Origin: Planctomycetota bacterium
GTDB taxonomy: Bacteria; Planctomycetota; Planctomycetia; Gemmatales; Gemmataceae
DNA length: 51,130 nt
Reading direction: 5' to 3'
Assembly (NCBI GenBank): GCA_016191165.1
Contig: JACPPF010000155.1
Coordinates: 1 to 51,130, forward strand
Both the position numbers and the translations under genes were made by a program. Each line of letters opens with the position of its first letter. Within the stretch, counting starts at the first letter, position 1. Below the pieces are notes generated by a model. The model was not told where the DNA came from, ran no database searches, and saw nothing but the letters and a program-made list of their open reading frames with translations. This document shows positions 36,481 through 50,879 of this stretch, in pieces.

Positions 36481-36813
36481 ATGCGTTATGAAATCATCTT
36501 GGCTCCGGAAGCCGTGGACGATTTGGCACGCCTCAAGGCGAACCGTCGCGCGACAGTCAAGGCAGCGCTGGAGCAACACCTGCGGCACGAACCGGCGAAA
36601 GTCAGCAAGAGCCACGTCAAACGCCTGCGTGGCCTGTCTCACCCCCAATATCGCTTGCGGGTTGACGACGTGCGCGTATTCTACGACATAACCGAAAAAA
36701 CGGTGGAGGTCCTGGCCATTGTCTCCAAAACCGATGCGAACGCCTGGCTCGCGCAAGCAGCCAAACGGGAAAACCAAAGCGGAGAAACCGATGAAGAAGG
36801 CAGCGCTATCTGA
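36481..36813 (+). CDS. RelE/ParE-family toxin
   Basis: 110 residues. The fold is recognisable from MRYEIILAPEAVDDLARLK, then LRGLSHPQYRLRVDDVRVFYDI and VEVLAIVSKTDANAWL, matching ParE/RelE toxins that cleave mRNA at the ribosome or block gyrase. The C-terminal tail beyond about residue 95 is acidic and overlaps the antitoxin reading frame. Gene order is toxin first, as in HigBA and some ParE/Phd pairs. Neighbours are the DGR locus downstream and a divergent secreted-protein gene. Confidence 0.85.
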   Translation: MRYEIILAPEAVDDLARLKANRRATVKAALEQHLRHEPAKVSKSHVKRLRGLSHPQYRLRVDDVRVFYDITEKTVEVLAIVSKTDANAWLAQAAKRENQSGETDEEGSAI

Positions 36814-37033
36814 CGTCAAGGACGACCTGTCGAAATATCTGCGCCTGGCCGAAAAGGAGGGAATCGTCATCACCCGTCACGGCAAACCAGCCGGGGTTCT
36901 GATCGGCTTTGCCGACGAGGACGATTGGTTTGACTATTGTCTGGAAAACGATCCGCGGTTTGTCGAACGGATCGCCGCCGCCCGGCAGAAACTGCGATCC
37001 GGCCAGGGTGTGCGGCTGGAAGACACCGAGTAA
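36791..37033 (+). CDS. Phd/YefM-family antitoxin
   Basis: 80 residues from ATG 36791, preceded by GGAGA, overlapping the toxin end by 23 bp, so translation is coupled. Phd/YefM features are the N-terminal DNA-binding part MKKAALSDVKDDLSKYLRLA, and VITRHGKPAGVLIGF. The acidic C-terminal half (FADEDDWFDYCLENDPRF) is the likely toxin-binding tail. The pair may stabilise this locus. Confidence 0.87.
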   Translation: MKKAALSDVKDDLSKYLRLAEKEGIVITRHGKPAGVLIGFADEDDWFDYCLENDPRFVERIAAARQKLRSGQGVRLEDTE

Positions 37034-37180: not shown

Positions 37181-37691
37181 GACTAATCAAATCTTTAATG
37201 GACGGAGGTCCCACCTGGAGAAAATCAACAGCCCGGCAGGGCCTTCGAGCCTTCCGGCCTACCAGACCTGCTAGGCCTAAGCATCATTTGGCCGGGCCGT
37301 CTATTTGGCGACGCGACGCGGGACAACCGCCTGGACTTTGCACCCTGCAATTGCCGATAATCTTAATGCGGGCCAGGGTCGAGCTTCGCGGTGGTTCGTG
37401 GAACAATCATCCCATGAACCTTCGCTCCGCCAACCGTAACAGGAACGAGCCCACGAACCTCAACAACAACATCGGGTTCCGCGTTTGTTCCTGCCTGCAC
37501 TTCCGAAACTGCCAGTCCGGTAGCCCAGAATCGGCAGGTTCACGAATCTGCCGAGCGCGGCGCCGGAAGTCCTGACCCTGTTCCGGCCATGCCTAGATGC
37601 TTCGGCAGGCGAACAGAAATGCGTGCCCGCATCAGTCTGGTAGGCGCGAGCCGAAGGCCTGATGTGGGACCTTTATCTCAAAGAGACCCTG
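37181..37691. other. Non-coding region carrying the DGR template repeat
   Basis: No supported gene. An open frame runs over 36937-37575 but its ribosome site and codon pattern are poor, and it is explained by the template repeat at 37383-37497, which reads in the same sense as the target protein's C-terminus. The 194 nt between the repeat and avd would belong to the template RNA that primes reverse transcription in known DGRs. Confidence 0.65.
37383..37497 (+). repeat. DGR template repeat (TR), 115 bp
   Basis: It matches the variable repeat over 115 bp without gaps. It has 26 adenines, mostly in AAC codons of the target frame; 12 of them are changed in the variable repeat, and none of the 89 other bases is. 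The last 24 bases (37474-37497) lack adenine and are identical in both, as expected for the initiation-of-homology region. It is presumably transcribed as part of a non-coding RNA upstream of avd. Confidence 0.96.
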
Positions 37692-38051
37692 ATGGCCAAG
37701 GATCTGACCATTCTGAGTGATTTTTACGACCTGATGAAATACATGACGGAACGAATTGAGAAATTCCCGCGTCATCACCGCTATAGTCTCGGCCTGTCGA
37801 TGGAGAATCGGCTGCAACAAATCCTCGGCGCCTTGATCCGCGCCAAATACACAGGCGCCCATGAATCCAAGCGATTGCTGCTCGCAGATGTCAACATCGA
37901 ACTAGAGGTCCTACGCTATCAGGCGCGATTGGCGTTGGAGTGCCGTTGTCTTGCTCCCAATAGCCATGCCCATGCGGCCAAACTGCTGGAATGGGTCGGT
38001 GCCCAAGTGGGCGGTTGGCTGCGCTCGTTGCGTTCGCCCTCAAACCCATGA
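37692..38051 (+). CDS. avd: DGR accessory variability determinant Avd
   Basis: 119 residues from ATG 37692 (after AAAGAGA); an in-frame ATG at 37662 would add ten residues. Avd forms a pentameric four-helix-bundle barrel that binds template RNA and the reverse transcriptase. Family features seen are the four predicted helices and the conserved IEKFPRHHRYSLGLSMENRL near 22-41. The stop overlaps the RT start as ATGA (38048-38051), so the two proteins are translationally coupled. It resembles the bacterial 23S-intervening-sequence (S23) protein fold, but the RT linkage and nearby template identify it as Avd. Confidence 0.92.
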   Translation: MAKDLTILSDFYDLMKYMTERIEKFPRHHRYSLGLSMENRLQQILGALIRAKYTGAHESKRLLLADVNIELEVLRYQARLALECRCLAPNSHAHAAKLLEWVGAQVGGWLRSLRSPSNP

Positions 38052-39157
38052 AACGCCACGGTAAGCTCTGGCCTGACCTCCTCGCCTGGGAGAATCTGCT
38101 CCGGGCCGCTCGCAATGCGCGGCGAGGGAAAAGGCATCGCGATGTGGTGCTACGTTTCGATTTCCATCTCGAACGCAACCTTCTCGATTTGCAGCGCGAA
38201 CTCGCCGCCGGCTCCTATCGGCCTGGTCCATTCCGAAACCACTGGATCGCCCACCCGAAGCGGCGTCTCATTTCGGCGGCGCCGTATCGTGATCGCGTTG
38301 TCCATCATGCGTTGATGAACGTGCTTGTGCCGATTCTGGATCGGCATTTTCATCCCGATACCTATGCTTGCCGGGCAGGCAAGGGGACCCATGCCGCCGT
38401 GCGCCGCTTGCAAGCCCTCATGCGCCGCAATTCCTGGGTGCTACAGTGCGACTTGCGCAAGTTTTTCCCTAGTATCGACCACGAAATCCTGAAAGCGACC
38501 TTCCGCACCCTCATCAAAGATCAAACCCTTCTCGCCCTGATGGACCGCATCGTTGATGCCGGTAATGAACAGGAGCCGGTTTGCGAATGGTTTCCAGGCG
38601 ACGATTTGTGGACGGCCCTGGAGCGCCGGCGGGGGCTTCCCATTGGGAACCTGACCAGCCAGTGGTTCGCCAATTGGTACCTGAACCGCTTTGACCATAT
38701 GATGACCAGCCATTTCGGAGCGGGCGGTTACGTGCGGTATTGCGATGATTTTCTCATTCTCGATCAATCCAGGCAGCGCGTTCTGGAGCTTCTCGAAGCT
38801 GCGCGCGAAGCGTTGGGAGACTTGCGATTGCGAATTCACCCGCACCGGTGTGTTGTCACCCAAACGCGCGGATTGCTTCGTTTTGTCGGTTACCGGGTTG
38901 GGCCGCGGATGATCAAACTGCCGAAAACGAACGTGCGAAAATTTCTTCGCCGGCTGCGCTGGTTGAAGGGGGCTTTTGCCGACCGACGGTTGGGGACCCA
39001 TGAAATCGACAAACGGCTGCAAAGCTGGCTGGGTCATTCTAAACAGGCGAACACTAAGCATTTGGTGAAGCGGCTGGCCAAGGATTGGATTTTTTCGCGC
39101 CGCGCGCCCTCACTTCGTGAGGGCGCGAAAGAAGAAAAAGAAAAGGGAAAAGGGTAA
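38048..39157 (+). CDS. DGR-type reverse transcriptase
   Basis: Copies the template RNA into cDNA with errors at adenines. It is 369 residues from ATG 38048. RT motifs: CDLRKFFPSIDHE (Asp135), GLPIGNLTSQWFANWYLNRF at 196-215, and the active site YCDDF at 231-235 (Asp233, Asp234). In DGR enzymes the motif-4 segment is (I/L)GNxxSQ, where group II intron and retroviral enzymes have QG; IGNLTSQ fits. No maturase or endonuclease domain is present, which excludes a group II intron protein. The C-terminus from about 350 is low complexity (KEEKEKGKG) and contains a hairpin-forming stretch. It is convergent with the target gene, with 23 bp between stops. Confidence 0.95.
   Translation: MKRHGKLWPDLLAWENLLRAARNARRGKRHRDVVLRFDFHLERNLLDLQRELAAGSYRPGPFRNHWIAHPKRRLISAAPYRDRVVHHALMNVLVPILDRHFHPDTYACRAGKGTHAAVRRLQALMRRNSWVLQCDLRKFFPSIDHEILKATFRTLIKDQTLLALMDRIVDAGNEQEPVCEWFPGDDLWTALERRRGLPIGNLTSQWFANWYLNRFDHMMTSHFGAGGYVRYCDDFLILDQSRQRVLELLEAAREALGDLRLRIHPHRCVVTQTRGLLRFVGYRVGPRMIKLPKTNVRKFLRRLRWLKGAFADRRLGTHEIDKRLQSWLGHSKQANTKHLVKRLAKDWIFSRRAPSLREGAKEEKEKGKG
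39103..39127. repeat. GC-rich hairpin between RT and variable repeat
   Basis: CGCGCCCTCAC at 39103-39113 and GTGAGGGCGCG at 39117-39127 form an 11-bp stem with a 3-nt loop. It lies in the last codons of the RT gene and 59 bp beyond the variable repeat's 3' end. It may be a shared terminator or the stem-loop that assists retrohoming in several DGRs. Confidence 0.8.
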
Positions 39158-39180: not shown

Positions 39181-41280
39181 TCAGTCCAGGCAGGAACAAA
39201 CGCGGAACCCGACGTCGTTGTAGAGGAGCGTGGGCTCGTTCCTGCGACGGTCGGCGGAGCGAAGGATCAAGGGATGAATGTGCCACGAACCACCGCGAAG
39301 CAAATGTTCACTTCCCGTCGCCGGCCCGGTGGGATCGGTCACTGGCTTGCTGGGATATTCGCCATAAAAATCCGCGCACCACTCCCACACGTTGCCGTGC
39401 ATGTCGTATAGGCCCCAGTCGTTTGCATGCTTCTGCCCGACAGGATGGGTTTTCGATCCAGAGTTTTCGGAAAACCAGGCGTATGGACCAAGGACGCCCG
39501 GATTGTCGCCGAAGCAATACGCGGTCTGCGAACCGGCGCGACAGGCGTATTCCCATTCCGCTTCGGTCGGTAGACGGTAGGTGTGCCCGTCCTTCGCCCC
39601 AAGCTTCTTGCAAAACGCGCAGGCGTCGTTCCACGAAACCCTTTCGACTGGCAAATCGTCTCCCTTGAAATGGCTGGGGCTGTTTCCCATGACCGCTTGC
39701 CATTGCGCCTGCGTGACTTGATGGATGCCAAGGTGGAACCCCTTGGCGATTGTGACGCGGTGGGGCGTCTCATCGTCGAAGCGATCTTTTTCGCCCGGCG
39801 GACTGCCCATGGTGAACGTGTCGGGCGGAATCCAGGCGAACTTCATGCCGAGCTGGTTGGTGACGATGTCGCCGGGCTTGCGGGTTGATGACGATTGCGC
39901 GGGCGCTACCCTGGCGACGGGGATGACGGTGGGGGGGTCCGGTTCACGGGTCGGCGATCCCGACGGCTCGCTGCGCTCGCCATCGGGCATGCGGGCGAGT
40001 TTGACAATTCGTTCATGCAACTCCTGCGCATCTTTCGGCCGATCGTCCACGTCTTGAGCCATGCATTCGCCCAGAAGCTGAACGTGCCCATCGGCGAGGC
40101 CCAGGGCGCGCAAGCGTTTGTCCCAGCCCCAGCCGGTGGGTGCGGAGCGGGACAGGTCGCGCAGCAACAGCTGGTAGCCGATGACGCCCAGGGCGAAGAC
40201 GTCGTCGCGCGGGTCGGGATCCTCGCCGCGCTGTTGCTGCGGCGATGCGTACAGCGGTGTGCAGGCGTAGCGCAGCGTGCCCAGCGATTTGGGCATTGCC
40301 GTGGCGATGCGCGATTGATCGAGCTGTTTTTTCGCCGCGATATGGCCGATGCCGAAGTCGGCGATCAAGAGGTGCAGTTTTTTGGCGAGCCGGCGCACGA
40401 GGATGTTGGCGGGCTTGAGGTCGCGATGGAGGATTGGTTCGGGCAGGCGATGGAACTGCCCGACGATCATGGCGAGATTTTGCCAGATCGCCAGAGCCGT
40501 GGGCACGCGATCGACGCCGGGCTGTTCGTTCCACTCGTTGACCATGCCCGCGAGGTCGCCGCCCTCGATGAGTTCGTATTGCAGCCACGGGGGCGAACTG
40601 TCGAGCTTGTAGTTTTGCAGCGTGACGACGCCCTTGACGTTGGCTAGGCGAACGCGGCCAATGATTGCCCTTTCGTGGTTCAATTGCAGCTGGCGCTTCG
40701 CGTCGGGGTCGGTGCAGAACTTGAACGCGGCGACAAAGCTGGCGTCGTCGATGCGGTGCGCCTTCCAGACTTCGCCCTGCCCGCCGCGGCCCAGCAGTTC
40801 GACAAGTTCCCAGTCACCATGCAAACAGGAAGGCCGTTCGCCCGGTTGAAACTGCGCGAGCCCGACGGGCAAAAGCGCGAGTACGTCGGCCGGGCCCTTG
40901 AACGCCAGCGTCGCAGGCACGGTCGTTCCCGATGGGTCGGCCGGGCGCTTGAGCGCTTGCCGGGTGGCGCCGGGAATCTGCATCAGGTATTGCGAAAGGC
41001 CTTGCTTCATTTCCGGGGAGGCTTGCGGCGCCAGTTCGGCGACGACCTGGGCGACGATCTGCTTGAGTTGCTCGGCCGGAATGGGCCTGGCGACCTCGGC
41101 CAGCTCGGCGCGTGCCTGGCCTTCGCTCGCTTCACCGACCCAGGCCTTGTAGAAATCGTCGCCGACCTCGCACATGTCGGCGAGCAGGTCCAAACCCGCG
41201 GCCTTGGCGATCCACTTGGGAACCTTCGGGAGCACGGCCTTGCCGGCGCAGCGCATGACTCGCTTGATCTTGTCGAACAT
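39181..41280 (-). CDS. DGR target: Ser/Thr kinase fused to FGE-sulfatase/C-type-lectin-fold domain
   Basis: 699 residues. About 1-145 is a helical N-terminal region (GLDLLADMCEVGDDFYKAW) of unknown role. The kinase domain spans about 155-430: glycine loop LGRGGQGEVW at 163-172, VAAFK with Lys187, HRDLKPANIL at 285-294 and DFG at 308-310, all intact. A Pro/Ser/Thr-rich linker (about 431-470) contains a 29-nt palindromic repeat. The formylglycine-generating-enzyme fold covers about 470-699 (FAWIPPDTFTMGSPPGE, RLPTEAEWEYACRAG, YDMHGNVWEW). Its C-terminus, residues 661-697, is encoded by the variable repeat. Catalytic cysteines of true formylglycine enzymes are absent (RSAD where they have RCA), so this end is a binding surface. 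I infer a kinase whose ligand-sensing module is hypermutated. No transmembrane helix or signal peptide is seen, so it is probably cytoplasmic. Confidence 0.92.
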   Translation of the reverse strand: MFDKIKRVMRCAGKAVLPKVPKWIAKAAGLDLLADMCEVGDDFYKAWVGEASEGQARAELAEVARPIPAEQLKQIVAQVVAELAPQASPEMKQGLSQYLMQIPGATRQALKRPADPSGTTVPATLAFKGPADVLALLPVGLAQFQPGERPSCLHGDWELVELLGRGGQGEVWKAHRIDDASFVAAFKFCTDPDAKRQLQLNHERAIIGRVRLANVKGVVTLQNYKLDSSPPWLQYELIEGGDLAGMVNEWNEQPGVDRVPTALAIWQNLAMIVGQFHRLPEPILHRDLKPANILVRRLAKKLHLLIADFGIGHIAAKKQLDQSRIATAMPKSLGTLRYACTPLYASPQQQRGEDPDPRDDVFALGVIGYQLLLRDLSRSAPTGWGWDKRLRALGLADGHVQLLGECMAQDVDDRPKDAQELHERIVKLARMPDGERSEPSGSPTREPDPPTVIPVARVAPAQSSSTRKPGDIVTNQLGMKFAWIPPDTFTMGSPPGEKDRFDDETPHRVTIAKGFHLGIHQVTQAQWQAVMGNSPSHFKGDDLPVERVSWNDACAFCKKLGAKDGHTYRLPTEAEWEYACRAGSQTAYCFGDNPGVLGPYAWFSENSGSKTHPVGQKHANDWGLYDMHGNVWEWCADFYGEYPSKPVTDPTGPATGSEHLLRGGSWHIHPLILRSADRRRNEPTLLYNDVGFRVCSCLD
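39187..39301 (-). repeat. DGR variable repeat (VR), 115 bp
   Basis: On the minus strand this aligns with the template 37383-37497 end to end. Substitutions change codons for residues 667, 668, 671, 672, 677, 679, 685, 687, 689 and 690, for example AAC to CAC, ATC, GAC, CGC, CTC and TAC. Several other template AAC codons (681, 688) are unchanged here. The conserved 3' end encodes GFRVCSCL. Confidence 0.96.
39959..39987. repeat. 29-nt palindromic repeat in the DGR target linker, in frame
   Basis: Arms CCCGACGGC and GCCATCGGG (8 of 9 pair, one G-T) surround the loop TCGCTGCGCTC, which is the complement of GAGCGCAGCGA found in the intergenic copies. It encodes PDGERSEPSG in the linker between kinase and lectin-fold domains. 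Confidence 0.8.
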
Positions 41281-41439
41281 GGCCTGGGAACCTCAACGCG
41301 ATGAAAGATATTGAAGGTTATCAGGTAGTTATTCGCGGCTCAAGGGAAAAGATTTTGCCAAACCGGCGCGGTTCAGTTGCATGGCGATAAAACGGTCGGA
41401 CCACCGATCAGGCCTGGTGGTCAGATATACAATGCCTTG

Positions 41440-42933
41440 ATGAGCCGCGTGATCGAATCGCCGCGTGTGGCCCCTCACGTCGAACCGGTGACGGGAGTGA
41501 CGGCGTGGGAGGTCTGTCAACGGCTGGCGGGTTGGGAGCGGGTCGTGTTTTTCGACTCCGCTTCCCCTCACCCTCGGCCTCTCTGCCAGGGGGAGAGGGG
41601 AGACACGCTCGGGCGTTACTCCTACGTGACCGCCGACCCCGCGGTCTGGCTGACGTCGCATCAGGGGTGGGTTAGCGAGAACGGGCGGTTTCTTGGCGTG
41701 GCGGATCCGCTGATGGTGCTGGCGGATCGGCTGGCCGATTTTTCGCTGGAGCCCCTTGAGGGCTTGCCGCCGTTCCAGGGCGGGGCGGCGGGCCTGTTCG
41801 GGTATGATCTGTGCCATCACATCGAGGTCCTGCCGCGGCCCGCATACGATGATTTCGGTATCCCCGATCTGGCGGTCGGGATCTACGACTGGGTCATCGC
41901 GTTTGATCATTCGTCCGACGAGGCCTGGCTGATCTCGACGGGCTATCCCGAAACGGAACCGCATCGGCGCGAGCAACGCGCGCGGCGGCGCGCGGATGAA
42001 GTCAAAGCTTGGCTGGATCGGCGATCGCTCCCCTCTCCTCCTGGGAAAGGAGTTGGGGCCAAGGGCGTTGGGCGCGCCGCCATCGAGACGCCCCAATTTC
42101 CCAGCGCTGGCCATTCGAGGATTACGAGTAATTTCGATAAGAAAGAATATCTACATACGATTGCGCGGGCCATCGAATACACCCATGCGGGCGATTGCTT
42201 TCAGGTGAACATCGCCCAGCGGCTGATGACGCCCGCGCATGACGCGCCGCTCGATTTGTACGCGAAGCTGCGCGAACGCAACCCGGCGCCGTTCGCGGGC
42301 TACTTCGACCTCGGCGATCACACCCTGCTGAGCGCATCGCCTGAACGGTTTCTACGCGTCGACACCCGCGAAGTTGAGACGCGACCGATCAAGGGCACAC
42401 GCCCGCGCGGGCAGACGCCTGAGGAGGACCGACGCCTCGCCCACGAACTCTTGACCAGCGCCAAGGATCGAGCCGAGAATGTGATGATCGTCGATCTGTT
42501 GCGCAACGACCTGGGCCGGGTGTGCGAATACGGCAGCGTGCGCGTCGAGGCGCTGTGCCGGCTGGAGAGTTATCAGTTCGTGCACCACCTCGTCTCCGAG
42601 GTTCGTGGGCGCCTGCGCGAAGGAATGGGGCCGATCGATCTGCTGCGGGCGGCGTTTCCGGGGGGATCGGTCACCGGAGCGCCGAAAATCCGGGCGATGG
42701 AGATCATTGCCGAATTGGAAAACACCGCCCGCGGCCCCTACTGCGGCTCGCTCGGCTGGATCGGATTCGACGGCGGCATGGATACGAATTTGCTCATACG
42801 AACCATGGTGTACGGAAAAGGCTGGCTGCACTTTTCGGTCGGCGGCGGCATCGTCGCGGATTCGGATCCGGAGCAGGAATACGCGGAAACCTGGCACAAG
42901 GCGCAAGGCTTGTTGCGAGCGCTGGGCGATTGA
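41440..42933 (+). CDS. pabB: Aminodeoxychorismate synthase component I (PabB)
   Basis: Converts chorismate plus ammonia to 4-amino-4-deoxychorismate, the precursor of p-aminobenzoate. It is 497 residues from ATG 41440. The chorismate-binding domain shows FQVNIAQRL, SASPERFL, TRPIKGTRPRG, KDRAENVMIVDLLRNDLGR, GSVTGAPK and GGGIVADSDPEQEY. The PIKGT lysine separates PabB from anthranilate synthase (PIAGT). Two G/C-rich palindromic insertions lie in the variable N-terminal half: residues about 42-55 (HPRPLCQGERGDT) and near 197-212 (LPSPPGKGVGAKGV). It is 60 bp upstream of DUF447 and beta-RFAP synthase genes. p-Aminobenzoate is the direct substrate precursor for beta-RFAP synthase, which explains the grouping. 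Folate synthesis is an alternative or additional use. Confidence 0.93.
   Translation: MSRVIESPRVAPHVEPVTGVTAWEVCQRLAGWERVVFFDSASPHPRPLCQGERGDTLGRYSYVTADPAVWLTSHQGWVSENGRFLGVADPLMVLADRLADFSLEPLEGLPPFQGGAAGLFGYDLCHHIEVLPRPAYDDFGIPDLAVGIYDWVIAFDHSSDEAWLISTGYPETEPHRREQRARRRADEVKAWLDRRSLPSPPGKGVGAKGVGRAAIETPQFPSAGHSRITSNFDKKEYLHTIARAIEYTHAGDCFQVNIAQRLMTPAHDAPLDLYAKLRERNPAPFAGYFDLGDHTLLSASPERFLRVDTREVETRPIKGTRPRGQTPEEDRRLAHELLTSAKDRAENVMIVDLLRNDLGRVCEYGSVRVEALCRLESYQFVHHLVSEVRGRLREGMGPIDLLRAAFPGGSVTGAPKIRAMEIIAELENTARGPYCGSLGWIGFDGGMDTNLLIRTMVYGKGWLHFSVGGGIVADSDPEQEYAETWHKAQGLLRALGD
41562..41602. repeat. 41-bp G/C-rich palindromic repeat inside pabB
   Basis: It is 37 of 41 identical with 32900-32940 in the meaB-type gene and contains the stem core CTCTGCC / GGGGAGAGG. 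Here it is read on the strand opposite to that used in meaB, yet it stays in frame. A related but more diverged stretch is at about 42030-42060 in the same gene. Confidence 0.85.
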
Positions 42934-42993
42934 GTGTATTCGATTAGCGCCCGCGCCGCGCCACGCAGGCGCTAAACGAAAGCCGGATGATCC

Positions 42994-43560
42994 ATGATCC
43001 TCGAAGGCATCGTCACCACGGTATCCCCGACCGGCGAGGTCAACATCGCCCCGATGGGCCCGCGCGTCGATGCGGACATGCGCCGGTTTCTGTTGCGGCC
43101 ATTCAACACCGCCACGACGTATCACAATTTACGCGCGCACGGCGAGGGCGTGCTGCACGTGACCGATGACGTGCTCCTCCTGGCGAGGGCGGCGGTGGGA
43201 CAACTGGTGGAGTTGCCGCCGCTGTTTCCAGCTCGCGCCATCCGGGGATGGGTGCTGCGTGATGCGTGCCGGGCCTACGAATTTCGCGTGCTGCACATTG
43301 ATGATCGCGAGGAGCGCATCCGCATCGAGGTCGAAACGGTGTATCACGGGGTCTTGCGAGAGTTCTTCGGCTTCAACCGCGCCAAGCACGCCGTTGTCGA
43401 AGCTGCGATCCTGGCGACGCGCACGCACATTTTGCCGATGGACGAAATCGAGGCGGAATTCAAGAAGCTCGAGGTGATCGTGCAGAAGACGGGCGGGGAA
43501 CAGGAGATGGAAGCGTTTGAGTTTCTGCAAGATTACGTCGCGGGAAGGAAAGAAGCATGA
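42994..43560 (+). CDS. DUF447 family protein (methanopterin-linked)
   Basis: 188 residues, matching DUF447, a flavin-reductase-like beta-barrel family. Visible motifs are MILEGIVTTVSPTGEVNIAPMGPRV, FNTATTYHNLRAHGEGVLHVTDDVLLLARAA, and FGFNRAKHAVVEAAILATRTHI. In methylotrophs and archaea this family clusters with tetrahydromethanopterin-dependent C1 genes, but its reaction is not established. The stop overlaps the beta-RFAP synthase start as ATGA (43557-43560), which strongly supports a common function. Confidence 0.85.
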   Translation: MILEGIVTTVSPTGEVNIAPMGPRVDADMRRFLLRPFNTATTYHNLRAHGEGVLHVTDDVLLLARAAVGQLVELPPLFPARAIRGWVLRDACRAYEFRVLHIDDREERIRIEVETVYHGVLREFFGFNRAKHAVVEAAILATRTHILPMDEIEAEFKKLEVIVQKTGGEQEMEAFEFLQDYVAGRKEA

Positions 43561-44564
43561 TCCAAATCCAAACCGGAAGCCGACTGCACTTCGGTTTGTT
43601 CTCGCTACCCGCCGACCATGCCGAACCCTGGCCGAATCACGCGGGCACGCCGACGTTGCCGCAGCGTCAATTTGGCGGCGTCGGCTTGATGGTCAAAGAG
43701 CCGGGAATCAGATTGACATTCGAGGAGGCCAAGAAGTGGTCAGCGGAGGGTTTGCACGCGGATCGCGCGCTGCAGTTCGCCGTCGCCTGTTGCAACTCCC
43801 TTCACATCCAGACCGCGTATCACATGCGAATTGTCTCCCCTGCTCCCCAACATGTCGGCCTGGGAACGGGAACCCAGCTTGGCATGGCCATCGCCTCGGC
43901 TCTCCACGCCGTGGCGCGACACGACGGGAAGGAATGCAACGTCGTCCAGATGGCGGCCCTCATCGGACGCGGCCAGCGCTCCGCCATTGGAATTCATGGC
44001 TTTGAGCATGGAGGGTTTCTCGTTGAGGCCGGCAAACGCTCCGACGCTGAAATATCACCGCTGCTCATCCACTGTGACTTTCCTACCGAATGGAGCATTC
44101 TCCTGGTCGTGCCCCGCGACCTTCAAGGCGTTCATGGGTCGCGCGAAGCGGCCGCATTCTCCAGCCTGAAACGGGAGCCGGTCGACGAACGGGCCACGGA
44201 AGCGATGTGTCGTATCGTCTTGCTCGGCATGGTTCCCGCGCTCATCGAACGCGATCTCGAAACCTTCGGCGAGGCCCTTCATGAATTCAATTACCGGGCC
44301 GGCACGATGTTTCGCCCGTTCCAGGGAGGCGTCTATTCGCACCCGCGGGTCGAGCAGATCGTCACCTGCCTGCGCGAGTTCGGTATTCCCGGCGTAGGTC
44401 AAAGTTCGTGGGGCCCGGCAACGTTCGCGGTCACCGATCAGGCCCATGCCGCCCAAACCTGGCTGGTCCGGAAAGGCGTCATTTCGTCCGACGAGGCCAT
44501 CATCGCCACTCCATGCAATCACGGGGCTGAGACGACCATCCCAACGAAAAGCGCCGACGGTTGA
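43557..44564 (+). CDS. Beta-ribofuranosylaminobenzene 5'-phosphate synthase
   Basis: Condenses p-aminobenzoate or p-hydroxybenzoate with phosphoribosyl pyrophosphate, releasing CO2 and pyrophosphate, the first committed step to tetrahydromethanopterin. It is 335 residues. GHMP-kinase-like fold: IQTGSRLHFGLFSLPADHAE at the start, QFGGVGLMV, the glycine-rich PQHVGLGTGTQLGMAIA, GRGQRSAIGIHGFEHGGFLVE and the end segment GVGQSSWGPATFAVTD. The name is a confident family match. Presence of this gene implies a methanopterin-type C1 pathway for formaldehyde oxidation, known in planctomycetes. It is coupled to DUF447 by ATGA and downstream of pabB. Confidence 0.92.
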   Translation: MIQIQTGSRLHFGLFSLPADHAEPWPNHAGTPTLPQRQFGGVGLMVKEPGIRLTFEEAKKWSAEGLHADRALQFAVACCNSLHIQTAYHMRIVSPAPQHVGLGTGTQLGMAIASALHAVARHDGKECNVVQMAALIGRGQRSAIGIHGFEHGGFLVEAGKRSDAEISPLLIHCDFPTEWSILLVVPRDLQGVHGSREAAAFSSLKREPVDERATEAMCRIVLLGMVPALIERDLETFGEALHEFNYRAGTMFRPFQGGVYSHPRVEQIVTCLREFGIPGVGQSSWGPATFAVTDQAHAAQTWLVRKGVISSDEAIIATPCNHGAETTIPTKSADG

Positions 44565-44687
44565 GCGTTTGGCGGTCCGGTAACTCCGTTTTTCTGGAAG
44601 CAATCCAAAATCGACGCCGAATCGTCTCATAGGATAGACAAAAAGAAATCAATCGAACCATGTTTGTTTGTACACGAGGATGAAGCC

Positions 44688-47600
44688 ATGTTGAAGTCGC
44701 GGAAATTGGGGCTGTTCGCCCTGGCGTTGACTCTCGGTCTGCTGGGCGTCTGGCGGTTGACCGCCGGGACGCCTTCGCTTGCGGCCCAGCGCACCAAGCT
44801 CACCAAGGCCTACAACGACGGCAACTACAAGGTCGCCTTCGAAGGCCTGCGAGCCCTCGCGCTCAATCCCAAGAACGACAAGACGCTCGTTGGCAAGGAT
44901 CTCGAACTGGCCATCAACGCGCTCGTTCGCCTGGGCCGAAATAGCGAGGTCGATGACTTCCGCGAAGCTGTCATCAAAGTCCACGCGAAGAACTGGCGTC
45001 TGCTCGCGGCGGCAGCCCAAACCTACAACTCGGGCGAACATTATGGCTTCATGGTGGCCGGCACGTTTCAGCGCGGCGGGCATCGCGGCGGCGGGCACAT
45101 CGTCAACAGCCTGCAACGTGACCGCACCCGCTCCCTTCAGCTCATGAAACAGGCGCTCGACAACACCAAGGGCGAGAACGATCGCGATGCCCTTGCCAAC
45201 TTCCACCTCCAGTTCGCGCACCTCATCCTCCACGGCGCCGGCAATACCGACGCCTGGCGGTTGCAATACCTCACCGATCTCAGCAAGCTCCCCGATTACG
45301 AGGAAGGCTACTGGTGGCACCGCCATCGCAATCACAACGGCGCCCCGGTCGATGCCGACGGCAATCCCATCCTTCACAAGGTCCCCAAGAGCTGGGACGC
45401 CGCCAAGTCCGATGGCGAACGCTGGCGCTGGCTCCTCCTGCAAACCATCGAATTCGATTCGGGCAAGGTCAACGAAGTCGATATGATCTTCGCCGACTTC
45501 ATGCGCGGCCAGCTCGGCGTGCAGACCATGGCCTACTACGGCTGGCGGTTTGGCAACATCGACGACACCGACGGGGACAAGAAGTCCGGCACCTTTGCGT
45601 TGCATACCCTCAAGGACAAGGAAACCATCGCCCGGCTCGCCACCGGCCTGAAGCGGTTCACCATTCCCGATGAGTACAACTGGATCAAGATCTACCAGCG
45701 CATCGCCGACCGCGCGCTGACCTCATGGGGTGAACGCGCCCTGGGCAATCTCGGACAAGAGTTCGAGGATCGCCGCCAGTATCCGCGCGCCGCCACGATC
45801 TGGAAACGCGCCATCAAGGATTACGGCGCAGGACCCAACCAGTGGCGCCAGAAACGGCACGACCAGATCGTCAACAACTGGGGCCGCTTCGAGAACGTGC
45901 AGACCCAGCCCGCCGGCACCGAACCGCACCTCGACTTCCGCTTCCGCAACGGCAACCAGGTCGCCTTTGAAGCCCATTCCGTGGACGTGCCCAAACTGCT
46001 CAACGATGTGAAGGCCTACCTCCGCGCCAACCCGGGCAACCGCATCGACTGGAATCAGGTCAACGTCAGCAATATCGGCTACCGCCTCGTCGAAAAGCAG
46101 CAGGTGCAATACCTCACCGGAAAGGTCGCCGCCTGGAACGTCAACCTCAAGCCTCGACCCAAACACGTCGATGACCGCATCACCGTCAAGGCCCCGCTCA
46201 AGAAACCCGGCGCCTACTTGGTGACCGCCCAGATGGCCAATGGCAACCTGAGCCGCATTCTCGTGTGGGTCAATGACACCGTCATCGTCAAGAAGCAACT
46301 CGATCAGAAGAGCCTGTACTTCGTCGCCGATGGCGTGACTGGCACGCCGGTCCCGAACGCCCAGGTCGAGTTTTTCGGCTGGCGGACCGTGCAGGTCGCA
46401 CCGAATGTCAACAAGTTCAACGTCGTCACCACGACGTTCACGGCCCAGACCGACAAGGACGGGCAAGTCATCCTCGGTCAGGACAAGGCGTCGCAGAATT
46501 ACCAGTGGCTGATCACGGCGACGAAGGCGAAGGCCGGCCTCGCCGGCGCCGATCGCTTCGCCTACATGGGTTTCACCTATGCCTGGTACGGTCAGCGCTA
46601 TGACGCCGAATACAACGCCGACCGCACCTTCGTCATCACGGACCGCCCGGTTTATCGCCCGGAACACAACGTCCAGTTCAAGATTTGGATTCAACACTCC
46701 AAATACGATCAGCCCAATGTCGCCTCCTTCGCGGGCCAGGCTTTCAAGGTTCGCATTACCAATCCAATGAACGAAAAAGTTCATGACAAGATTTACACAG
46801 CGGACGAATACGGCGGCATCGTCGGCGAGTACACGTTGCCCAAGGGCGCGACCCTCGGCGTGTACAGCGTCCAGCTCCTCGATCCCCAAGGCCCGCCGGA
46901 CCGCTATCGCGGCGGCTCCAGCTTCCGCGTCGAGGAATACAAGAAACCCGAGTTCGAAGTCAAAATCAACGCGCCGACCGAACCCGTCAAACTCGGCGAC
47001 AAGGTCACGGCAACCATCGACGCCCGCTATTACTTCGGCGCGCCGGTCACGAATGCCATGGTCAAGTACAAGGTCATGCGCCAGTCGCATTCAAGCCGCT
47101 GGTATCCCTATAGCCGCTGGGACTGGATGTACGGCAACGGCTACTGGTGGTTCGCGCCCGATTACAACTGGTACCCCGGCTTCGAGGCGTGGGGATGCCG
47201 CCGACCCATCATGCCCTGGTGGGGCTGGAGCCGTGAGCAGCCGGAAATGGTGCTCGAAAACGAAGTCCCCATCGGCGCCGACGGCAAGGTCGAAGTCGTC
47301 ATCGACACGGCGACTGCCAAGGAATTGCACGGCAATCAGGACCACAAGTACACGATCACCGCGGAAGTGACCGATCAGTCGCGCCGCACCATCGTTGGCC
47401 AGGGAGACGTGCTTGTCTCGCGCAAGGCCTTCAAGATTTACACCTGGCTCGACAAGGGCCATTACCGCACCGACGACACGATCAAGGCTCACTTCAAGGC
47501 CCAGACGCTCGACAAGAAAGCGGTCGAGGGCAAGGGCGAATTGACTCTCTTCCAGATCAGCTATAACGCCAAGAACGAGCCGGTCGAGAAGGCCGTGCAG

Positions 47601-50600
47601 ACGTGGAAGCTCGACACCAATGTCGAGGGTTCCGCAATGCAGCAGATCAAGGCCGCCAAGGCAGGGCAGTATCGTCTGTCCTACAAGGTGACGGACAAGA
47701 AGAAAAACACCATCGAGGGAGGCTACCTCTTCCTCGTCATCGGCGAGGGCTTCGATAGCAAGGGTTATCGCTTCAACGACATCGAGCTCATCACCGACAA
47801 GAAGGAATACAACCCCGGCGATAAAGTCAAGATCAACGTCAACGTCAACCAGAACAACGGCACCGTGTTGCTGTTCGCTCGCCCGACCAACGGCGTCTAC
47901 CTGGCTCCCAAGGTGCTGCGCCTCAAGGGAAAAAGCATCGAGGAAGAGATCACCGTCGTCCAGCGCGACATGCCCAACTTCTTCGTCGAAGTCCTCACGG
48001 TCCACGGCGGCCGCGTTCATACCGAGACGCGCGAACTCGTCGTCCCGCCTGAAAAGCGCATCGTCAACGTGGAAGTGCTTCCCAATCAGCAGGAGTACAA
48101 ACCGGGCGAAAAGGCAACGGTCAAGGTCAGGCTGACCGACATCCATGGCAAGCCATTCGTTGGCTCGACGGTCATAAGCGTTTACGACAAGAGCGTCGAG
48201 TACATCTCCGGCGGCTCAAACGTGCCGGAGATCAAGGAGTTCTTCTGGAAATGGCGCCGGCATCACTACCCGCGCACCGAGTCGAGCCTGGTCGGCTGGT
48301 CGGGCAATCTGTTTCGCACCGGCGAAATCGGTATGAGCGACCTCGGCGTGTTCGGCGCCAGCGTGGTTGAGGAAATGAAAAACAAGGCAGACGCCAAGGG
48401 CGCCGAAAAGGCCATGGCGCGCGACGGCGCCGCGGCCCCAGGCGGCTTCGGCGGCGGCGGTCTGGGCGGCTTGCGCCAGCAGAACGGTCAGGGGGCAGAT
48501 CGCGGTAACGCTTATCGGCGCGAATTGCAAAAGGCTGCCGGCGAGGCCGGCGAACCGGGCAACGCCAATCAGCCGGGCGTGGAGCCTTCCATCCGCAAGA
48601 ACTTCGCCGACACCGCCTACTGGGCCGGCTCACTGGTCACCAACAAGCAGGGCCTGGCCGAGGTTTCCTTCAAGACGCCCGACCAGCTCACGGCCTGGAA
48701 GATCCGCGTCTGGACCATGGGTCTGGGCACCAAGGTTGGCCAGGGCGAGGCCGAGGTCGTCACCAAGAAGGACCTGATCGTTCGGCTCCAGGCCCCGCGG
48801 TTCTTCGTTCAAAAAGACGAGGTCGTCCTGTCCGCGAATGTTCACAACTACCTCAAGGCCGAGAAAAAAGTTCGCGTCACGCTCGAATTCGATGGCGGCA
48901 CTCTGTCCGCGATCGATCCCCTGAGCCGCGAGGTCACGATTCCCTCCGGCGGCGAGAAGCGCGTCGACTGGCGCGTCAAGGTCCTGAACGAAGGTGAAGC
49001 CATCGTCCGCATGAAGGCCGTCACCGACGACGATGCCGACGCCATGCAGATGCGCTTCCCGTGCTTCGTTCACGGCATGTTGAAGATGGATTCTTTCACT
49101 GGCGTCATCCGTCCGGAAAAGAACTACGGCAAGGTGACGTTCAGCGTGCCCGCCGAGCGGCGCGTCAACGAAAGCGTCCTTGAAGTTCGTTACACGCCGA
49201 CGTTGGCCGGCGCGATGATCGACGCCCTGCCCTACCTCGTCGATTATCCCTATGGGTGCACCGAGCAAACGCTCAATCGCTTCCTTCCCACGGTCATCAC
49301 CCAGCGCGTGCTGCAAAGCATGAAGCTCGACCTCAAGGAGATCGAGAAGCACCAGACCAACCTCAACGCCGGCGAGCTCGGCCCCGACAAGAAGCGTGTC
49401 GCCGACTGGAAGCGCCTCACCAAGCGCAACCCCGTCTTCAACGAGGAAGAAGTCCGCAAGATGAGCCAGGCCGGCATCAACGCCCTGGCCTCCATGCAAC
49501 TCTCCGACGGCGGCTGGGGCTGGTTCTCCGGCTGGGGCGAACGGAGCTGGCCGCACACGACTGCCACGGTCGTTCACGGCCTGCAACTGGCCAAGGCCAA
49601 CGACATCGCCCTGCCGCCAAACATGCTCGAACGTGGCGTCGCCTGGCTGCAAGGCTATCAAAACCAGCAGGTTCGCCTCCTGCACAATGGCGCCACCAAG
49701 ACGCGACCGTACAAACTTTATGCCGACAACATCGACGCCCTGGTCTACATGACCCTCGTCGATGCCAAGGTCGACAATACCGAGATGCGCGATTTCCTTT
49801 ATCGCGATCGCACGCATATCGCCGTCTACGCCAAGGCGATGTTCGGCCTCGCCCTCCACAAGCAGGGCCAAAAGGACAAGCTCAAGATGATCCTGGAGAA
49901 CATCGACTCTTACGTCGTCAGCGATGACGAGAACCAGACCGCCTACCTGCGCATGCCCGAAAGCAACCAGTGGTGGTACTGGCACGGCAACGAGATCGAA
50001 GCCAACGCCTACTACCTCAAGCTCCTGTGCAAGACCGACGCCAAGGGCGAACGTGCCAGCCGCATGGTCAAGTACCTGCTCAACAACCGCCGGCACGCGA
50101 CCTACTGGAAGAGCACGCGCGACACCGCCATCTGCGTTGAAGCGTTTGCCGACTACCTGAAGATGTCCGGCGAGGATCGCCCCGACATGACGGTCGAGGT
50201 CTGGCTCGACGGCAAGAAGCACAAGGAAGTCCGCATCAACAAGGACAACCTCTTCAGCTTCGACAACAAACTGATCCTCACCGGCGACAAGGTCACGACC
50301 GGGAAGCACACGGTCGAGATCAAACGCAAAGGCTCCGGCCCGGTCTACTTCAACGCCTACGTGACGTACTTCACCCTCGAAGACTTCATCACCAAGGCCG
50401 GCCTGGAGGTGAAAGTCAACCGCAAGTACTACAAGCTCACGCGCGTGATCGACAAGATCAAGGCGTCCGGTTCCAAGGGCCAAGCGCTCGATCAGGCCGT
50501 CGAGAAGTATACACGCGCGGAGTTGCCCAACCTGTCTACAGTGAAGAGCGGCGACCTCGTGGAGGTGGAACTCGAAATCGATTCCAAGAACGATTACGAG

Positions 50601-50879
50601 TACCTGATCTTCGAGGATCCGAAAGCCGCCGGCTTTGAACCGATGCAGGTGCGCTCCGGGTATGTGCCCAACACGATGGGCGCCTACATGGAACTGCGCG
50701 ACGAGAAGGTCGCCTTCTTCGTGCGGCACCTGGCGCGCGGCAAGCATTCGATCGCCTACCGCATGCGGGCCGAGATCCCCGGAACCTTCAGCGCGCTGCC
50801 AACGCGCGGCTACGCCATGTACGCGCCGGAACTCAAGGGCAACTCCGACGAGATCAAGATCCGCGTGATCGACCGGTAA
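44688..50879 (+). CDS. Alpha-2-macroglobulin family protein with thioester motif
   Basis: 2,063 residues from ATG 44688, which has GAGGA at a good distance; an upstream TTG at 44664 is less likely. An N-terminal hydrophobic segment (about 8-25, LFALALTLGLLGVWRL) is a signal peptide or anchor; no lipobox cysteine is present. The first 400 residues are helical, TPR-like. Macroglobulin domains follow, with the family motif VITDRPVYRPEHNVQFKIW. A Trp/Tyr-rich loop lies at about 804-850, and a Gly-rich bait-like stretch (GGFGGGGLGGL) near 1250. The thioester motif YGCTEQT is at about 1522-1528 (Cys1524, Gln1527), followed by the alpha-toroid (LSDGGWGWFSGWGE). Such proteins trap proteases in the periplasm or at the cell surface. 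No pbpC neighbour is seen. A 29-nt hairpin and a terminator follow. Confidence 0.92.
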   Translation: MLKSRKLGLFALALTLGLLGVWRLTAGTPSLAAQRTKLTKAYNDGNYKVAFEGLRALALNPKNDKTLVGKDLELAINALVRLGRNSEVDDFREAVIKVHAKNWRLLAAAAQTYNSGEHYGFMVAGTFQRGGHRGGGHIVNSLQRDRTRSLQLMKQALDNTKGENDRDALANFHLQFAHLILHGAGNTDAWRLQYLTDLSKLPDYEEGYWWHRHRNHNGAPVDADGNPILHKVPKSWDAAKSDGERWRWLLLQTIEFDSGKVNEVDMIFADFMRGQLGVQTMAYYGWRFGNIDDTDGDKKSGTFALHTLKDKETIARLATGLKRFTIPDEYNWIKIYQRIADRALTSWGERALGNLGQEFEDRRQYPRAATIWKRAIKDYGAGPNQWRQKRHDQIVNNWGRFENVQTQPAGTEPHLDFRFRNGNQVAFEAHSVDVPKLLNDVKAYLRANPGNRIDWNQVNVSNIGYRLVEKQQVQYLTGKVAAWNVNLKPRPKHVDDRITVKAPLKKPGAYLVTAQMANGNLSRILVWVNDTVIVKKQLDQKSLYFVADGVTGTPVPNAQVEFFGWRTVQVAPNVNKFNVVTTTFTAQTDKDGQVILGQDKASQNYQWLITATKAKAGLAGADRFAYMGFTYAWYGQRYDAEYNADRTFVITDRPVYRPEHNVQFKIWIQHSKYDQPNVASFAGQAFKVRITNPMNEKVHDKIYTADEYGGIVGEYTLPKGATLGVYSVQLLDPQGPPDRYRGGSSFRVEEYKKPEFEVKINAPTEPVKLGDKVTATIDARYYFGAPVTNAMVKYKVMRQSHSSRWYPYSRWDWMYGNGYWWFAPDYNWYPGFEAWGCRRPIMPWWGWSREQPEMVLENEVPIGADGKVEVVIDTATAKELHGNQDHKYTITAEVTDQSRRTIVGQGDVLVSRKAFKIYTWLDKGHYRTDDTIKAHFKAQTLDKKAVEGKGELTLFQISYNAKNEPVEKAVQTWKLDTNVEGSAMQQIKAAKAGQYRLSYKVTDKKKNTIEGGYLFLVIGEGFDSKGYRFNDIELITDKKEYNPGDKVKINVNVNQNNGTVLLFARPTNGVYLAPKVLRLKGKSIEEEITVVQRDMPNFFVEVLTVHGGRVHTETRELVVPPEKRIVNVEVLPNQQEYKPGEKATVKVRLTDIHGKPFVGSTVISVYDKSVEYISGGSNVPEIKEFFWKWRRHHYPRTESSLVGWSGNLFRTGEIGMSDLGVFGASVVEEMKNKADAKGAEKAMARDGAAAPGGFGGGGLGGLRQQNGQGADRGNAYRRELQKAAGEAGEPGNANQPGVEPSIRKNFADTAYWAGSLVTNKQGLAEVSFKTPDQLTAWKIRVWTMGLGTKVGQGEAEVVTKKDLIVRLQAPRFFVQKDEVVLSANVHNYLKAEKKVRVTLEFDGGTLSAIDPLSREVTIPSGGEKRVDWRVKVLNEGEAIVRMKAVTDDDADAMQMRFPCFVHGMLKMDSFTGVIRPEKNYGKVTFSVPAERRVNESVLEVRYTPTLAGAMIDALPYLVDYPYGCTEQTLNRFLPTVITQRVLQSMKLDLKEIEKHQTNLNAGELGPDKKRVADWKRLTKRNPVFNEEEVRKMSQAGINALASMQLSDGGWGWFSGWGERSWPHTTATVVHGLQLAKANDIALPPNMLERGVAWLQGYQNQQVRLLHNGATKTRPYKLYADNIDALVYMTLVDAKVDNTEMRDFLYRDRTHIAVYAKAMFGLALHKQGQKDKLKMILENIDSYVVSDDENQTAYLRMPESNQWWYWHGNEIEANAYYLKLLCKTDAKGERASRMVKYLLNNRRHATYWKSTRDTAICVEAFADYLKMSGEDRPDMTVEVWLDGKKHKEVRINKDNLFSFDNKLILTGDKVTTGKHTVEIKRKGSGPVYFNAYVTYFTLEDFITKAGLEVKVNRKYYKLTRVIDKIKASGSKGQALDQAVEKYTRAELPNLSTVKSGDLVEVELEIDSKNDYEYLIFEDPKAAGFEPMQVRSGYVPNTMGAYMELRDEKVAFFVRHLARGKHSIAYRMRAEIPGTFSALPTRGYAMYAPELKGNSDEIKIRVIDR

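Follow-up and report, generated by a model that had tools for sequence, protein, structure and literature searches.

A complete-looking diversity-generating retroelement with a predicted kinase-lectin target in a Gemmataceae genome

Bacteria have few known systems for programmed protein hypermutation, and diversity-generating retroelements (DGRs) count among them. Lectin domains diversified by DGRs have been placed in proposed conflict systems (PMC10907252, PMC7159879, PMC8195603). For the DGR targets of Thiohalocapsa, one figure legend lists Pkinase as a domain (PMC10907252). For cyanobacteria, the kinase was reported in 2020 to be the commonest domain of DGR targets, together with a ligand-sensing hypothesis (PMC7517822, Vallota-Eastman et al. 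2020).

We analyzed a 51,130-nucleotide stretch of a planctomycete contig (JACPPF010000155.1, assembly GCA_016191165.1), hereafter the window, in which a first-pass annotation had noticed a DGR acting on a kinase and had regarded such a target as a departure from known DGRs. That premise is out of date, as both kinase plus C-type-lectin targets and the idea of a ligand-activated kinase have been published for cyanobacteria (PMC7517822). Among the papers listed by a literature search combining DGRs with Planctomycetes, Planctomycetota or Gemmata, none had a title on planctomycete DGR kinases.

Anatomy of the DGR locus

The template repeat (TR; 37383..37501, + strand) lies 5' of an avd accessory gene (37662..38051, +; bAvd PF22296, E 1.9e-16; NCBIfam DivGenRetAVD, 84.9 bits against a cut-off of 80) and a DGR reverse transcriptase (RT) ORF (37991..39157, +; RVT_1, E 8e-21). 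The likely RT start is the ATG at 38048, which overlaps the avd stop (ATGA). The target gene, encoding a 699-aa product, is convergent (39181..41280, - strand; the ORF coordinates and strand were checked and are right), and its last 119 bp form the variable repeat (VR; 39183..39301, -; residues 661-699), so that avd and RT sit between TR and VR. ParE toxin and Phd/YefM antitoxin genes are found immediately 5' of the TR (36481-37033). On the other side of the target, an anthranilate/aminobenzoate synthase component I-like gene is followed by DUF447 and GHMP kinase genes (41377-44564), a set that would fit tetrahydromethanopterin synthesis in planctomycetes, and a 2071-aa ORF (44664-50879) resembles, by its sequence, an alpha-2-macroglobulin-like protein.

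TR and VR align over 119 bp without gaps and differ at 13 positions, 12 of which fall on template adenines. The TR has 27 adenines in all (hypergeometric P = 2.1e-8 for the bias). Exactly ten residues are altered by the A-site mismatches (667, 668, 671, 672, 677, 679, 685, 687, 689 and 690), the number that had been read from the sequence at first pass. The single non-A difference is a C in the TR (37498) and a G in the VR (39186, - strand), close to where the match ends; the same terminal C/G difference recurs at three related loci (L049, L057 and L175), and we infer that it is an IMH*/IMH difference. No further TR or VR copies, remote VRs included, were found at E≤1e-3 in the 7.2-Mb genome (183 contigs).

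A DNA hairpin with an 11-bp stem and a GAA triloop on the target strand (39103..39127, -) is located 56 bp past the VR, within the RT ORF near its 3' terminus. Such a hairpin is required by the BPP-1 DGR, and phage DGR hairpins are described with stems of 7-10 bp and 4-nt GRNA loops (PMC3240598), whereas the loop here has 3 nt. In the related loci we counted hairpins that have a C-GNA-G triloop and a stem of 4 bp or more and lie no more than 90 bp past the repeat. They followed 28 of 80 VRs, a count inflated by kinship (19 of the hairpins are distinct, and they come from 21 of 56 loci). The count was 3 for 56 TRs, 2 for the 228 other long ORFs in these loci (L047-L126) and 0 for the 80 flanks 5' of the VRs; 200 dinucleotide shuffles gave a mean of 0.18 and a maximum of 3. 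The pattern was set after GAA loops had been noticed, which makes this test partly post hoc. Among loci found after the pattern was fixed, the hairpin was present in L175 and L176 and absent from L177 and L180. A pyrimidine-rich stretch separates VR and hairpin in the Gemmataceae loci. We count the triloop hairpin, which differs from the phage consensus, among the additions of this analysis without claiming that it was unreported; as a signature it offers a handle for finding further DGR targets.

A scan with the RT gave 314 relatives, of which the best 80 were kept. A-biased TR/VR pairs were found by a strict screen at 55 of these 80 loci. Eight of the other 25 were inspected with relaxed criteria, which added pairs in L049, L057, L061 and L062. 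A repeat in L065 was rejected as a TR because it is an inverted repeat. All 69 target ORFs of at least 250 aa without ambiguous residues, the window's included, had an FGE domain; five also had Pkinase and four Peptidase_C14. One DGR target, from a Planctomycetaceae MAG (L060:1-5538; 1846 aa, with an open 5' end), combines kinase, nSTAND1, TPR and FGE regions. The locus thus has an RT related to DGR RTs, A-specific TR/VR differences, Avd and a hairpin after the VR, and judged by this anatomy it is a real, complete-looking cellular DGR with a predicted kinase target.

The target protein and its variable face

The target consists of a helical N-terminus (residues 1-150), a Ser/Thr kinase domain (about 155-435; Pkinase 158-375, E 8e-20) and an FGE/C-type-lectin domain (about 473-699; FGE-sulfatase 483-694, E 2e-49). 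Residues 1-149 had no Pfam match even at E 5. All kinase motifs are present, namely the glycine loop GRGGQGEV from residue 164, K187, HRD285 and DFG308; these and the Pfam domains agree with the first-pass description of a variable lectin-fold end on a kinase with intact Lys187, HRD and DFG. By its motifs the protein is a Hanks-type Ser/Thr kinase with predicted phosphotransfer activity. Hydropathy analysis of the whole protein revealed no transmembrane helix (best 19-residue mean 1.33), and the N-terminus was not signal-like (best mean 0.82 in the first 60 residues), again as first proposed. The target is therefore predicted to be a probably cytosolic kinase. The FGE catalytic cysteine pair, also noted as missing at first pass, is indeed lacking, because the W666-R674 segment has no Cys in either VR or TR.

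The FGE domain was modelled alone with a pLDDT of 93.6. Its closest match was Treponema TvpA (2y3c; Z 35.3, rmsd 1.4 Å over 224 residues); FGE of human (Z 28.7) and bacterial origin scored lower, near 29. Of the ten variable residues, this model puts six in loops, two at the first position of short strands and two in a helical turn of three residues; all ten come after the strand ending at residue 662. The stretch that holds them corresponds to the binding face of TvpA and, by homology, they would be exposed. The full-length model was poor (mean pLDDT 62.8, pTM 0.41, with a poor kinase N-lobe), and the domain arrangement is not readable from it. The first-pass reading of a binding surface on a signaling enzyme is thus partly supported: a DGR diversifies the lectin-fold end of a kinase that looks cytosolic, and homology places the sites in the TvpA-face segment. 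The novelty of that reading is not supported, given the cyanobacterial precedents.

Variability between species does not by itself demonstrate that a DGR has acted, and we rejected it as proof, as homologues without a DGR were about as variable at the ten sites. In 27 such homologues, taken from 40 selected stretches after those with an unreached or unmatched FGE end were dropped, the ten sites had 3.03 bits vs 0.71 at other VR positions; in 45 mostly DGR-linked rows the values were 3.21 and 0.62 bits. Standalone kinase fragments had misaligned to the FGE end and were excluded from later alignments. Three kinase-FGE-like proteins without a known DGR (L148, L149 and L155) have HRD replaced by HRY, HRG or HRH and, from these motifs, are likely pseudokinases.

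DGR targets across the Gemmataceae

At E≤1e-60, nine RT matches were found in 6 of 95 Gemmataceae genomes; a truncated RT in another genome (G009, E 1.2e-36) did not reach this cut. The first-pass annotation had suggested comparison with other planctomycete DGR kinase fusions, and a kinase-FGE target was found at seven of the eight readable Gemmataceae loci: the window, L035 (G005), L175 (G068), L177 and L180 (G082), and L178 and L179 (G112), the last two with near-identical kinases that are hence not independent. The eighth, L174 (G112), has caspase-FGE targets in two genes. The target of the remaining locus, L176 (G080; a contig re-examined from L059), is unreadable at the contig edge. The locus in another genus, L175, has the same layout as the window DGR and a related kinase-FGE target; its ORF begins within the kinase C-lobe, which is 49% identical to the window's, and Pfam there calls FGE only. 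In the sister species G005, the DGR kinase-FGE gene (L035:2290-5018) is split by a frameshift that is either real or an assembly error.

Outside the Gemmataceae, 45 loci had a target of at least 250 aa, and a kinase was present in three of them (Fisher P 6e-6 against seven of eight, although related loci are not independent). Left out of the target count was L050, where no TR was found, though a kinase-FGE gene adjoins the RT. This gene (L050:1987-5544) encodes a kinase-CsgG-like-FGE protein, and its VR-like end has two cysteines five apart past a conserved W, like the FGE pair.

Kinase-FGE targeting therefore looks like the usual DGR pattern across the family. We also compared DGR targets with the other FGE proteins of the same genomes. 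Four genomes (G000, G005, G068 and G082) contained 66 FGE matches, and all five that are DGR targets were kinase-fused, vs 15 of 61 that are not. The 15 may be an undercount, as ORFs below 500 aa were scored kinase-free unscanned, the L235 ORF was missing, and L214, L216 and L222 overran their stretch. Because the chance of five in five from those counts is about 0.002 (hypergeometric), Gemmataceae DGR targets look enriched for kinases over an already high background. Since kinase-FGE fusions are this common without a DGR, the pairing may also stem in part from the FGE genes that happen to be available.

A kinase-domain tree of 31 rows placed the kinases of the window and of L175 (the latter filling 30% of the columns) in one starred group (96/95), among 20 kinases that have no known DGR. 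The eight remaining DGR kinases and that of L050 fell outside this group. On the starred branches the DGR label has to change at least twice; the 20 non-DGR kinases had been picked by similarity to the window protein, which accounts for part of the clustering of labels. Even within one genus, the DGR kinases of the window and G005 are only 24% identical. These results suggest that, in the Gemmataceae, DGRs became paired with kinase-FGE proteins in two or more kinase groups, which would indicate selection for the pairing.

Proposed mechanism, alternatives and related systems

The anatomy described above was seen here, and the retrohoming reaction is modelled on BPP-1. Template RNA would be reverse-transcribed with errors at adenines by RT and Avd, and the cDNA would replace the last 119 bp of the convergent target gene, with the downstream hairpin aiding. 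The C-terminal FGE-type C-type-lectin face, with its ten variable residues, would then bind a molecule, most likely a protein, and binding could switch the kinase or place a substrate at it, so that cell lineages could differ in the partner to which their kinase is tuned. We consider it probable, though well short of assured, that the locus is a complete DGR diversifying the lectin face of a probably cytosolic Ser/Thr kinase, with partner binding steering the kinase, because of the A-specific TR/VR differences, the intact avd and RT, the hairpin, the kinase motifs, the TvpA match, the L175 layout, the seven of eight Gemmataceae loci and the kinase tree.

It is possible, at a rather low probability, that the protein serves as the intracellular antigen sensor of a defense or programmed-death system, its kinase relaying infection. 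DGR-lectin sensors have been proposed for conflict systems (PMC10907252, PMC7159879, PMC8195603), and related DGR targets carry caspase (L053) or nSTAND1 (L060) domains. However, the scanned neighbors (the ParE/Phd pair, the pabB-like gene, DUF447, GHMP kinase and DUF4185) included no evident effector or adaptor, and the PADLOC matches of the target were kinase-domain matches, the best being PD-T4-6 and mad6, with no curated cut-off shown. In NCBIfam, the target scored 76 bits for MAD6, far below the cut-off of 460 bits, and so reached no known anti-phage system over a curated cut-off.

We are doubtful that the variable face works as a docking arm that picks the substrate of the kinase and does not switch it, an alternative named for the cyanobacterial proteins (PMC7517822). 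The C-terminal place past a linker suits an input or output role alike; no specific evidence counters docking, and anatomy cannot separate the two. It is unlikely that the DGR is now idle, with its last retrohoming round fixed and the gene an ordinary kinase-lectin protein. The single TR and VR of the genome and the patchy occurrence of DGR RTs in the family would fit such a state, but the RT, the Avd, the TR and the hairpin appear to be intact, and all TR/VR differences bar the terminal C/G site are at template A. Export of the target as a surface binding protein is highly improbable: related DGR targets (L047, L051, L053 and L054) have hydrophobic signal-like N-termini, as judged by eye from ORF starts, but the window target has none, and a kinase domain needs ATP.

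If DGRs do drive signaling kinases, as in the favored reading of a diversified, partner-steered kinase, bacteria can tune intracellular sensing within generations. A wider proposal, which we regard as speculative and unlikely in its full form, is a family-wide strategy in which Gemmataceae DGRs repeatedly captured unrelated Hanks kinases, making hypermutable intracellular receptor kinases for adaptive recognition, perhaps against phage or non-self. Were it true, a lineage could change what a cytoplasmic kinase senses, in bacteria with large kinase repertoires.

The closest solved structure, TvpA of Treponema denticola (2y3c), shares the FGE-type C-type-lectin fold and a C-terminal VR; unlike the window protein it is described as a single domain with a predicted lipoprotein signal and without a kinase. 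The Gemmataceae L053/L174 DGR is alike in its upstream TR, convergent target, GAA hairpin and RT (56% identical to the window's), but it acts on two genes, each for a caspase (PF00656)-FGE protein that begins with a signal-like N-terminus. The DGR sensors of Thiohalocapsa PB-PSB1 likewise join signaling or NTPase domains to a DGR lectin or FGE domain, although those described are mostly STAND or MoxR-vWA conflict systems (PMC10907252).

The cyanobacterial DGR proteins, as reported, are also kinase-lectin fusions, mostly predicted to be cytosolic, with the same functional hypothesis (PMC7517822). The window differs from them in its planctomycete host, in a TR 5' of avd with a convergent target, in a kinase group distinct from that of two sampled cyanobacterial kinases, and in an N-terminal helical region that is common to Gemmataceae homologues without a known DGR; the cyanobacterial RTs in our scan were roughly 43-50% identical to the window RT. 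DGR-diversified kinase-lectin targets are therefore known, and what is new, besides the triloop hairpin, is the Gemmataceae tally and the separate recruitment of kinases. The tally suggests that a second phylum also has the pairing described in cyanobacteria, there on kinases that are unrelated.
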